Below, piece by piece: positions 8,963 through 26,411 of a DNA stretch of 35,448 bases; the first letter of the stretch is position 1; every line of letters begins with the position of its first letter. The position numbers and the translations under genes were made by a program. Under the pieces are notes generated by a model, which did no database searches, was not told where the DNA came from, and was given only the letters and a program-made list of their open reading frames with translations. Source of the stretch: a virus; the IMG/VR virus record IMGVR_UViG_3300029449_000010, positions 1 to 35,448 of that record; one strand, written 5' to 3'.

Positions 8963-9814
8963 TCAATAATTTTCAGCCATTTCGATAGCCTTGAATAATT
9001 CAAACGCCACTTGTGGCACAATAGCATTGCCGTATGCTTTTATTGATTCTTGCCTCCATTTAGGAAAGGTAATTCCGTCCAATTTGGAGGAAACCCCATC
9101 ATTTCCGCTACAAATCGGGGGTTGAGTCGGGAAGTCGTCCCAGGCTCGAAAATCCTGTCTAAACTGTCCTTTTGTATCTTTCCGTCTCGAATTCTCTCGT
9201 TCGAACCTGTCCCTTTCCAATCCCTCGTTGTTGGCGTTGGCAACAATCCAGATTCGCTCTCTTCGGTGTGGTGCCCCGACGGCTTCAGCTGGTATAATGA
9301 GCGGCGCGACGGTGTAGCCGATTGACTCAAAATCGTCGATAATTTGGTTAAGGACGAATCTTTCTCGGAGTTCATATAACGAGTCACCCTCTCCGTATAA
9401 ATTGGTTTGACTTCCCACTTTAATAGGTGAACTTGGGAGCGCCATCGTTGTAATTCCAGCAACGTTTTCAGGAACGATCCAATCTGGCCTAACTTCTTTG
9501 ATAATTCTAAACATTTCCGGCCAGAGGTAGCGGTCATCTTCTGTGCCGCGTCTGGATCCTGCAAGGCTAAAGGGTTGGCATGGGAATCCACCTGTGAGTA
9601 TTGTTTTTTCATTTGACTTCCATTTACTATTTGTTAATAAAGTGTTTTTTGTCAGGGTTTTAATGTCTTCATGGTGATAAGCATCTGGCCAATAATATTT
9701 AAGGACTCTCCTTGCGAATGGTTCAATTTCGCAAGTGCTTATAACATTCCATCTCATCCATTCTGCGGCTAATTCAAAGCCGCCTATTCCTGAAAATAAG
9801 CTAATTAGTTGCAT
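8963..9814 (-). CDS. DNA (cytosine-5) methyltransferase
   Basis: A 283-aa C5-cytosine DNA methyltransferase, which transfers a methyl group from S-adenosylmethionine to cytosine in a target sequence. All core motifs are present in order: motif I LFSGIGGFELA (residues 6-16), motif IV GGFPCQPFS (75-83, catalytic C79), motif VI PENVAG (115-120), motif VIII HRRERIW (183-189) and motif X YGNAIVPQV (261-269). The target-recognition region between VIII and X is very short (about 70 residues). No restriction partner is seen, so it probably protects phage DNA from host restriction. It starts in a TAATG overlap with the VRR-NUC gene. A second frame over its middle and 3' parts is also open (see 9040-9612). 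Confidence 0.93.
   Translation of the reverse strand: MQLISLFSGIGGFELAAEWMRWNVISTCEIEPFARRVLKYYWPDAYHHEDIKTLTKNTLLTNSKWKSNEKTILTGGFPCQPFSLAGSRRGTEDDRYLWPEMFRIIKEVRPDWIVPENVAGITTMALPSSPIKVGSQTNLYGEGDSLYELRERFVLNQIIDDFESIGYTVAPLIIPAEAVGAPHRRERIWIVANANNEGLERDRFERENSRRKDTKGQFRQDFRAWDDFPTQPPICSGNDGVSSKLDGITFPKWRQESIKAYGNAIVPQVAFELFKAIEMAENY
9040..9612 (-). CDS. Overprinted ORF within the methyltransferase gene, 190 aa
   Basis: A same-strand ORF in a different frame, lying wholly inside the methyltransferase gene, with an ATG at 9612. It is not an obvious shadow. Its second half (SGLLPTPTTRDWKG at residues 121-134 and LNPRFVAEMMGFPPNWTELPF at 163-183) resembles, from memory, a recurrent phage and prophage sequence annotated as part of, or next to, C5 methyltransferases. 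Its start (about residues 10-60) also follows that family's style. The end (PFLNGGKNQ) uses the same bases as PKWRQESI of the methyltransferase. It could be a genuine overlapping gene or the trace of an older frame; expression is unproved. Confidence 0.5.
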   Translation of the reverse strand: MKKQYSQVDSHANPLALQDPDAAQKMTATSGRKCLELSKKLGQIGSFLKTLLELQRWRSQVHLLKWEVKPIYTERVTRYMNSEKDSSLTKLSTILSQSATPSRRSLYQLKPSGHHTEESESGLLPTPTTRDWKGTGSNERIRDGKIQKDSLDRIFEPGTTSRLNPRFVAEMMGFPPNWTELPFLNGGKNQ

Positions 9815-10212
9815 TATTGTAGATATTTGTCAATAATTTTAACGGCCTCATCATAACCTTTGGCAAAATCGGCATAGTATCCCCGGCATCTTAGCGCCTG
9901 AATCATGTCGTATTGTTCGCGAATGTGTTTATTGCTAGTTAGCTCTCCATTAGCTTTCAAAATGCAGACATCTGTTCGCTTCATTTCGATGAACAAGCCA
10001 TGGTATTGGATGCCGTCGACAATCGAAGGTTGAAAAATTAGCAGGTCCGGAATCCCGGGCGAGCTTCTGAGCTTTGCGGCTTTTTTAGCCAAGCCCATGG
10101 GTAGTTTAATCCCGCTCATATCCGACGTAAAAATTACGTGCGGATACTTTAATTTAAGGTAGCACACCGTGCGTCGGTGCTCTACCTCTTCGGATGGTAC
10201 TATTTTAGCCAT
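9814..10212 (-). CDS. VRR-NUC domain nuclease
   Basis: A 132-aa protein matching the VRR-NUC family of PD-(D/E)xK nucleases. The central signature SSPGIPDLLIFQPSIVDG (residues 50-67) and HGLFIEMKR (71-79) gives the catalytic D56, E76 and K78. Family members cut branched DNA such as Holliday junctions or flaps. In a phage it may resolve replication or recombination intermediates before packaging. It overlaps the 158-aa unknown by 8 bases and the methyltransferase by 1 base (TAATG), so the three are translated together. Confidence 0.85.
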   Translation of the reverse strand: MAKIVPSEEVEHRRTVCYLKLKYPHVIFTSDMSGIKLPMGLAKKAAKLRSSPGIPDLLIFQPSIVDGIQYHGLFIEMKRTDVCILKANGELTSNKHIREQYDMIQALRCRGYYADFAKGYDEAVKIIDKYLQ

Positions 10213-24162: not shown

Positions 24163-26411
24163 TGGCAGATAAAATTATAATTGGAGAATTAGAGCTTGAC
24201 ACTTCGAAGGTAATTGCCTCACAGCAAAAGCTTGCTTCCGAAATTGAGACAACAAAAAAGCAAATGAAAGAAGTTGCTGAAAGCTCCGGCAAAGCTTCGA
24301 AAGAGTATATAGAGCTTGAGGCTAACATGAAAGCGTTGAAGGGAGAGTATAATAGCAATAAAAATGCACTGGCCAAGGTTACACAAGCTCAAAACGCCAA
24401 TGAGGGGAGTTTGGCACAATTAAAAGCGCAATTGTCAGTTGTTACAAACGAATGGAACAATTTAACAGAGGAGGAGCGGCTAAATAGCGAGCGGGGAAAG
24501 CAGATAACAGCGCAAAAGACAAAGTTAACAGAGCAGTTAACAAAGGAGGAAAAAGCAACGGGAGATGCGAGGCGTTCCGTTGGACAATATGAAAATGCAA
24601 TGAATGCCCTTCCAAGTTCAATGAAAGGAGTAGTGCAGGGAGCTAAAGGAGCGGGACAGGCATTAAAAGCATTAGCTGGGATTCCTATTGTCCTAGTTAT
24701 AACTGGCATAGTTGCGGCAATTACAGGTCTTGTGAAATTATTTAAATCCACCGATGACGGCGGCACAAAGCTAGAAGCGACAATGAACGGGCTAAAGGCT
24801 GTTTTCCAAGTGCTAAAAGGCGTTGTACTTGATTTGGTTGAAGGGACAAAGGCAAAAATACAGCTGTTCGGAAAATCCTTCGAGCTGTTAAAGGCTAAAA
24901 TTGCCGGCAATGATGAGCAGGTGGCCAAAATAAAACAAGAAATGCAGGAGCTTTCAGACGTTATAAACAAAAATAAGCCGTTTGAAAACTTAGGCAAAAG
25001 AGCAAAAGACGCGTACACAGAGGTTTATAACCTAACATTTGCTATGGATGAGCTTAATGACAAAATGATATCGGCTATCTCTGAGCAAAAGGAGATGGAG
25101 TTTGAATTGGAAAATTATTTAAACCTTGCCGCAGACCAGACAAAATCGGAAAAAGAACGAATCCAATTATTGGAGGCCGCCAATGCATCGGCAAAAAAAT
25201 TATATGGACAGCGGAAAAAGTTTGCGGAAGACGAATTTAACAATTTAGTAAAACAAACAGCGGCAGAAAGAGAGGTTTCGGAAGAGTTGGTAAAGTGGTT
25301 AATTACAGCAGATGCCGAGACAGTGGCAAGTGCCAGAAAAACTAACGAAGATATTGCCGAGCTTTGGAACGAAGGAGGCGACGAGCGAATTAAGGAGCTT
25401 GAGGAATTGTATGTAAAGGCGCTGGATGCTGATATTCAATACACTACAAAAACTAAAAGAATCGTAAGTCAATTATCCAGTCTGCGTAAAAAATTAAACA
25501 AAGAAGACGCGGACAACGCGACAGAACAAGCAGCACGTGAAACCGACGAGGTTTTGGCTATTTTAACTAATCAGTTAGATGCAACAAGGGCACTACGCGA
25601 CCAAAATGCAGAGATAACAAAAGAAATTTTTAAAGAGCAAAACGATAGCATAGCCAAAACACAGCAAGAACTTTACGAAAACATGTTGCAAGCCAGGGCT
25701 CTTGACGCTGAGAACGAGTGGGAATTGGCACAGGGCAACATATTTAGCCAACTTGAATTAGACAGGCAATATTTAGAACAAAAAAGAGAGCAGGATATTG
25801 CTTATGCAAAAAAAATCGGTGCTGACATTGAAAAGGTCAACAAAAGATATGACAAGGCAGAATTGGAGCTGGAGCGAGCAAAAATAAACGCTAAAATGTC
25901 ATTGGCCGCCGGCTTCGCCCAAGACATTGCCACTATTTTTGGAAAGCAAACAGCTATCGGCAAAGCGGCAGCAGTAGCGCAAACAACTATAACAACCATT
26001 CAAAGTGGGGTGAACTCTTTTAATTCATTGGCACCAATACCAATAGTCGGCCCCGCTTTGGGAGCCGTGGCCGCAGCCGCAGCCGTGGCTAGTGGATATG
26101 CACAGATAAAAAAGATATTATCAGTGAAAAGCGGACTGCCGGGCGAAAATAAAGGAGCAAGCTCCGGAGGCGGATTAGCAGGCGGAGGAGGTGCGTCCCC
26201 AAACATCCCACAAGTTCCGCGCGAAACCGTTCAGGGGAGTGTTGGCAGTGGAATTGTCTCACGCGAAAGTGGCAACAACACGACACAGGCGGTTGCTACA
26301 GGGGTAGCGCAGGCATTGCAAGACAACCCACTACAACCGACACTTGTTACAGACAATGTAACGGTTAACCAAGATACAGCGAAAGCGGCAAACGAGACAG
26401 CGACGACATAA
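24162..26411 (+). CDS. Tail tape measure protein
   Basis: A 749-aa protein, the largest in the genome, with the features of siphovirus tape measures. It has long alpha-helical, coiled-coil regions (residues 15-140 and about 300-580), a central hydrophobic segment (LAGIPIVLVITGIVAAITGL, 171-190) and an Ala-Gly-rich second hydrophobic stretch near 625-655, followed by a Gly- and Ser-rich tail. At about 0.15 nm per residue it would set a tail of roughly 110 nm. It determines tail length and passes DNA into the cell. It begins in a TAATG overlap with the tail protein and is followed by a promoter. Confidence 0.9.
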   Translation: MADKIIIGELELDTSKVIASQQKLASEIETTKKQMKEVAESSGKASKEYIELEANMKALKGEYNSNKNALAKVTQAQNANEGSLAQLKAQLSVVTNEWNNLTEEERLNSERGKQITAQKTKLTEQLTKEEKATGDARRSVGQYENAMNALPSSMKGVVQGAKGAGQALKALAGIPIVLVITGIVAAITGLVKLFKSTDDGGTKLEATMNGLKAVFQVLKGVVLDLVEGTKAKIQLFGKSFELLKAKIAGNDEQVAKIKQEMQELSDVINKNKPFENLGKRAKDAYTEVYNLTFAMDELNDKMISAISEQKEMEFELENYLNLAADQTKSEKERIQLLEAANASAKKLYGQRKKFAEDEFNNLVKQTAAEREVSEELVKWLITADAETVASARKTNEDIAELWNEGGDERIKELEELYVKALDADIQYTTKTKRIVSQLSSLRKKLNKEDADNATEQAARETDEVLAILTNQLDATRALRDQNAEITKEIFKEQNDSIAKTQQELYENMLQARALDAENEWELAQGNIFSQLELDRQYLEQKREQDIAYAKKIGADIEKVNKRYDKAELELERAKINAKMSLAAGFAQDIATIFGKQTAIGKAAAVAQTTITTIQSGVNSFNSLAPIPIVGPALGAVAAAAAVASGYAQIKKILSVKSGLPGENKGASSGGGLAGGGGASPNIPQVPRETVQGSVGSGIVSRESGNNTTQAVATGVAQALQDNPLQPTLVTDNVTVNQDTAKAANETATT

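Follow-up and report, generated by a model that had tools for sequence, protein, structure and literature searches.

The window, that is, the whole stretch of 35,448 nucleotides that was analysed, is a tailed-phage record in which terminase large subunit, tape measure and portal families were matched. Its minus strand carries a gene for a C5 cytosine methyltransferase (frame f0). Nested entirely within this 283-codon ORF, on the same strand and in the +1 frame relative to f0, is a second ORF (f1), the coordinates and sequence of which had been given correctly in an earlier, sequence-only reading of the locus. The open f1 stretch is 197 codons long and the ORF from its ATG is 190 codons long. 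The features of the locus are as follows.

8963..9814, minus strand: f0, catalytic body of a C5 cytosine methyltransferase, 283 aa, the proposed alpha chain, carrying motifs I-VIII and X, without motif IX.
9040..9612, minus strand: f1, 190 aa from the ATG at 9612, the proposed beta chain (evidence from the ORF, permutation nulls, dual-frame rates and motif IX).
9535..9537, minus strand: alternative internal f1 start ATG at f1 residue 26 ('QKMTAT'), over f0 'EDD' (from the start-codon column count).
9247..9537, minus strand: N-terminal part of f1, opposite f0 motifs IV-VIII, with both frames constrained (f1 dN/dS 0.21 and f0 dN/dS 0.05 over 63 independent pairs).
9211..9246, minus strand: recognition-like f1 module 'LLPTPTTRDWKG', present in 1-4 copies in relatives (f1 z = 45 in the main module window, where f1 is more conserved than f0).
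9070..9126, minus strand: f1 motif IX 'LNPRFVAEMMGFPPNWTEL' (f1 z = 92; HHalign P 0.0048; HMM of the canonical motif IX).
9065..9235, minus strand: f0 residues 194-250, opposite the f1 recognition region, loosely constrained and predicted to be unstructured (pLDDT about 46-52; f0 dN/dS 0.44, 0.21-0.75).
9014..9031, minus strand: f0 motif X 'GNAIVP', with G262 and P267 invariant in alignment A2 (f0 z = 50 in its window).

The neighbour upstream of the methyltransferase (9814-10212, minus strand) is similar to a phage family of Holliday-junction resolvases or endonucleases, and in loci L002 and L003 genes like it, annotated VRR-NUC, are found close to the methyltransferase. Elsewhere in the window, a 209-codon ORF with a GTG start (24389-25018, minus strand) runs antisense to the tape-measure gene.

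When a gene is conserved in one frame, its other frames show a shadow of that conservation, and similarity alone therefore proves little. The E-value of a match to the f1 family is partly such a shadow of the conserved f0, which leaves comparison with recoded genes as the only decisive test. As the null for the window gene we used 2000 synonymous recodings in which the f0 protein and its codon usage were fixed. The openness of f1 was matched by none of them (0/2000), the real stretch of 197 codons standing against a null mean of 78 and a maximum of 170. Against a profile of the f1 family from which the window was left out, the real f1 scored 195.1 bits, while the recodings averaged 73.9 and reached at most 124.3 (n=2000). 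The window f1 also matched the PHROG_1008 profile (E 2.7e-19), as did 86/86 f1 sequences tested, a match to be taken with caution because recoded shadows score well too with another f1 profile. f1 belongs to this family, whose label, 'DNA methyltransferase', is silent on any overlap with the methyltransferase frame and on any role as a subunit. Scans of f1 against Pfam and NCBIfam gave nothing relevant, and sequence searches of the PDB with f1 alone or with the f1 profile gave nothing credible.

Relatives were collected by tblastn with f1, which yielded 85 phage records, 491 confirmed viral-contig stretches (80 kept) and 295 bacterial genome stretches (80 kept). In the inspected phage and plasmid records, as well as in the 80 bacterial genome loci, f1 was always in the +1 frame to the methyltransferase; two loci (L205 and L239) contain extra f0 fragments in other frames. 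The idea that LPTP modules, the recognition-like modules of f1, occur in frame in other methyltransferases was dropped, as every inspected phage match was in the +1 frame. Among about 300 Bacteroidota genomes there were 3 with a match and among about 300 Bacillota genomes 7, of which 3 were weak and fell on other methyltransferases; the matched Bacteroidota and Bacillota loci that were examined overlapped an f0-type gene in 8/8 cases. No f1 homologue outside an overlap with f0 was found in the 80 bacterial genome loci or in these 8. Such confinement had been put forward, together with the dual-coding proposal, as an argument against it, and taken literally it is what we observed. It does not refute the proposal, because a subunit born and kept inside the gene of its partner would look the same. 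The first set of relatives had been picked by f1 similarity and is thus biased; a second set was picked by f0 similarity alone. In 97% of these f0-picked loci f1 was longer than in 95% of the recodings, compared with 7% for the f2 control, and in the same test a long open f1 was found in 8% of ordinary one-chain methyltransferases.

Selection was analysed with a codon-permutation null in 212 complete relatives, compared at <50% f0 identity; the set accidentally includes three one-chain enzymes (L264, L265 and L267), which works against the result. Within alignment columns 60-258, about 49 f1 stops were observed and roughly 1050 were expected, and just beyond these columns 239 were observed against 130 expected. 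Conservation of f1 lay 10 to 92 SD above the null in most windows of the ORF and only 2-8 SD above it in a few hypervariable ones. The sequence-only reading had proposed true dual coding, to be given up if f1 stops were frequent in relatives or if synonymous variation was not reduced. Its proposal is supported: f1 is open in nearly all relatives, with stops almost absent inside the ORF among the 212, and substitutions there that alter f1 without changing the f0 protein are suppressed. In the reverse null, with f1 fixed, f0 was strongly conserved at motifs I-VIII and X, and the f0 block 'DDGLPTELD' was mostly explained by f1 (2.15 observed, 1.78 under the null). Dual-frame substitution counts over 63 independent pairs gave an f1 dN/dS of 0.04 in the recognition region and 0.03 in motif IX, against 0.67 before the ORF and 1.08 after it. 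The f0 dN/dS was 0.44 (0.21-0.75) opposite the f1 recognition region and 0.31 (0.11-0.81) opposite f1 motif IX, and 0.03-0.05 elsewhere. This pattern indicates that, along the gene, f0 hands the coding task over to f1 and later takes it back. f1 is a real, protein-coding gene under purifying selection. Its segment at 9247..9537 may be the site at which alpha docks.

It can be seen from the motif content of the two frames how they might share one enzyme. f0 scored 140.7 bits against PF00145 (cut-off 22) and 122.9 bits against TIGR00675. Its AlphaFold model has a mean pLDDT of 80, with 90-98 in the core and about 47 in residues 194-250, and the best structural match of the model is M.HhaI (Z 23.8 over 208 of 283 residues). 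As modelled, f0 is the large domain without the small domain, and it does not unite motifs I-X and a recognition domain as one-chain C5 methyltransferases do. All core motifs from I to X had initially been assigned to f0, and this assignment was wrong, motif IX being absent from f0 and carried by f1. The most conserved block of f1, LNPRFVAEMMGFPPNWTEL, resembles C5 motif IX (LTPRECARLQGFPDSF in one-chain enzymes). When f1 was compared by HHalign with 57 methyltransferases, 17 of which were later recognised as f0-type, this block aligned to the motif IX columns (P 0.0048 over 23 columns). We then used a motif IX HMM built from 40 one-chain enzymes, an earlier one from 7 enzymes having been too weak. 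For f1, its best match lay 0-26 aa ahead of f0 motif X in 184/212 relatives; the controls at the same position gave 5 for f0, 22 for f2, 6 for recoded f1 and 7 for permuted f1 (of 212). The score of the window's own f1 motif IX is weak (-0.2 bits), the evidence being the position of the motif across the family. The HMM had no match in the window f0, and the three f0 entries with >4 bits were the one-chain enzymes included by accident (L264, L265 and L267). Whole-length HHalign of spliced f0/f1/f0 composites against one-chain enzymes was not better than that of f0 alone (585 vs 601) and gave no separation between the frames. f1 modelled alone by AlphaFold was poor (pLDDT 60, pTM 0.31), with no match to solved structures; f1 could fold only together with f0, or the alignment could be too shallow.

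Several relatives depart from the layout of the window. In L002, L003, L007 and L008, f1 has 2-4 LPTP-type modules, compared with one in the window, and f0 mirrors them with repeated 'ADSEGL'-like blocks; the number of modules may be related to specificity. In five loci from Bacteroides elements and a gut phage contig (L006, L007, L008, L184 and L187), f0 has in-frame stops before motif X while f1 is open. These stops are all TGA and mostly at conserved Trp positions (AAE[TGA]MGW, FSR[TGA]RQ), as would be seen with readthrough or recoding, or with decay of TGG to TGA. In L008 (1255-2380), a long in-frame insertion interrupts f0 just before the catalytic PCQ and ends intein-like in VVHN|CQPF.

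The start of f1 was also followed through the relatives. A start codon is present at the internal M column in 133/212 relatives, against 87.6 expected from f0 codon usage, and somewhere between the upstream f1 stop and this column in 99.5% of them. The start site is not strictly conserved among the 212, and Shine-Dalgarno-like sites before the internal ATG were not enriched (133 seen, 142 expected). Beta is presumably translated from a start of its own.

The locus very probably encodes a two-chain C5 methyltransferase of the M.EcoHK31I kind, alpha (f0) and beta (f1), in overlapping frames, and f1 is most probably the missing DNA-recognition half of the methyltransferase. Alpha would contribute motifs I-VIII, which serve AdoMet binding and catalysis, and the final motif X. 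Beta, from an independent start inside the alpha gene and in the +1 frame, would contribute motif IX as well as the target-recognition region with its LPTP modules. A single active enzyme would form when both chains come together, the recognition region and motif IX being supplied in trans, and f0 residues 194-250 might be an unfolded linker where beta docks. We infer that alpha and beta bind each other and that beta sets the specificity. Partner, inhibitor and target-recognition part had all been suggested for the f1 product from the sequence; the first and the last fit best, and an inhibitor has no support.

A different possibility is that f1 encodes a separate protein, such as a regulator, a methyltransferase inhibitor or an anti-defence factor, overprinted by happenstance. 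Accessory factors are often encoded by overprinted viral genes, and no fold was recognised for f1 alone, both of which would suit such a protein. However, f1 carries motif IX, which f0 lacks, and has it at the canonical spacing from f0 motif X; nor did any of the loci examined have f1 without f0. In addition, the recognition region of f0 is loosely constrained and predicted to be unstructured, and f0 therefore needs a partner. It seems improbable, then, that f1 has a job apart from the methyltransferase. Even less probable is that a single chain arises by programmed frameshifting, with ribosomes leaving f0 for f1 after motif VIII and perhaps returning before motif X. The order of motifs I-VIII (f0), recognition region and motif IX (f1) and motif X (f0) is collinear with a one-chain enzyme, as frameshifting would have it, but a complete enzyme would need two shifts. 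Moreover, conservation of f1 reaches well upstream of motif VIII, where a shift after that motif would not call for it, and nearly every relative offers f1 a start codon in the interval described above. That f1 is only a shadow ORF, held open by f0 conservation and codon bias and giving no product, is the least credible reading: the considerable profile scores of recoded window genes and the lack of f1 homologues outside the overlap agree with it, but it is refuted statistically by the real f1 exceeding all 2000 recodings in both length and score, and stops are absent and f0-silent, f1-altering changes suppressed only inside the ORF, an effect missing from canonical methyltransferases.

The two-chain layout preferred here is already known, from one or two laboratory enzymes. 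M.EaeI consists of two chains, and in M.EcoHK31I the gene for the large chain contains that for the small one in a different frame, as f0 contains f1 in the +1 frame. The two loci are alike also in their motifs, as the larger chain of M.EcoHK31I (YGGCCR), originally reported by Lee, Kam and Shaw (1995, cited in PMC3404938), is described as having motifs I-VIII and X without IX, and the smaller chain motif IX (PMC3404938). They differ in that the predicted target-recognition domain of M.EcoHK31I was placed in the larger chain (PMC3404938), whereas here the recognition region seems to lie in the small chain (f1), and in that f0/f1 is an orphan-looking phage enzyme. M.AquI, a natural two-chain C5 methyltransferase, likewise has motif IX in its second chain, but both motifs IX and X are in that small chain (PMC3404938), whereas motif X (GNAIVP) here stays in f0. 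In Paenibacillus phage Lily, LILY_63 ('g62 internal gene') is likewise a +1-frame ORF inside a phage C5 methyltransferase, and its annotation is hypothetical, without a function or a link to other phages. A prophage orphan C5 methyltransferase has been predicted to share the specificity of M.EaeI or M.EagI (PMC4722110), and this prediction hints, indirectly, that the f0/f1 family and the M.EaeI/M.EcoHK31I group are one. PMC11855218 is a study of insertions in related mycobacteriophage methylases, in which we found no mention of f1. A literature search for the family-wide overlap found no description of it. As far as we have searched, what is new is the breadth of the arrangement, over many phyla and in one clan of the tree, and the evidence that the recognition region is in beta and not in alpha.

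A tree built on motifs I-VIII placed 50 f0 sequences, drawn from phages, Bacteroidota, Bacillota and Pseudomonadota, apart from 30 one-chain enzymes, across a branch with 100/100 support. The simplest reading is a single origin of the overlapping arrangement, which proves to be of ancient date and widely distributed among phages. A plausible origin is a pair of compensating frameshifts in an ancestor, because f1 motif IX sits at the position of motif IX in one-chain enzymes. In a one-chain ancestor, two such frameshifts may have moved the recognition domain and motif IX out of frame and so left two interlocked subunits, of which beta alone would set the specificity while the old recognition region of alpha would be kept only as an open linker. 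After this single origin, phages and prophages of many bacterial phyla would have retained the arrangement. This history fits the collinear position of f1 motif IX between VIII and X and the single 100/100 clan, and we regard it as a tentative proposal, with chances slightly below even.

Few long same-strand gene overlaps known from prokaryotes and phages would be as widespread as this arrangement, which belongs to an enzyme family with an easily assayed function. With it, the annotation of many phage 'cytosine methyltransferases' covers only half of the enzyme, and cloning of the annotated ORF alone could give a false negative. The loci would also represent a natural split methyltransferase family, the recognition half of which is open to swapping, and a good system for the study of selection acting on two frames at once.
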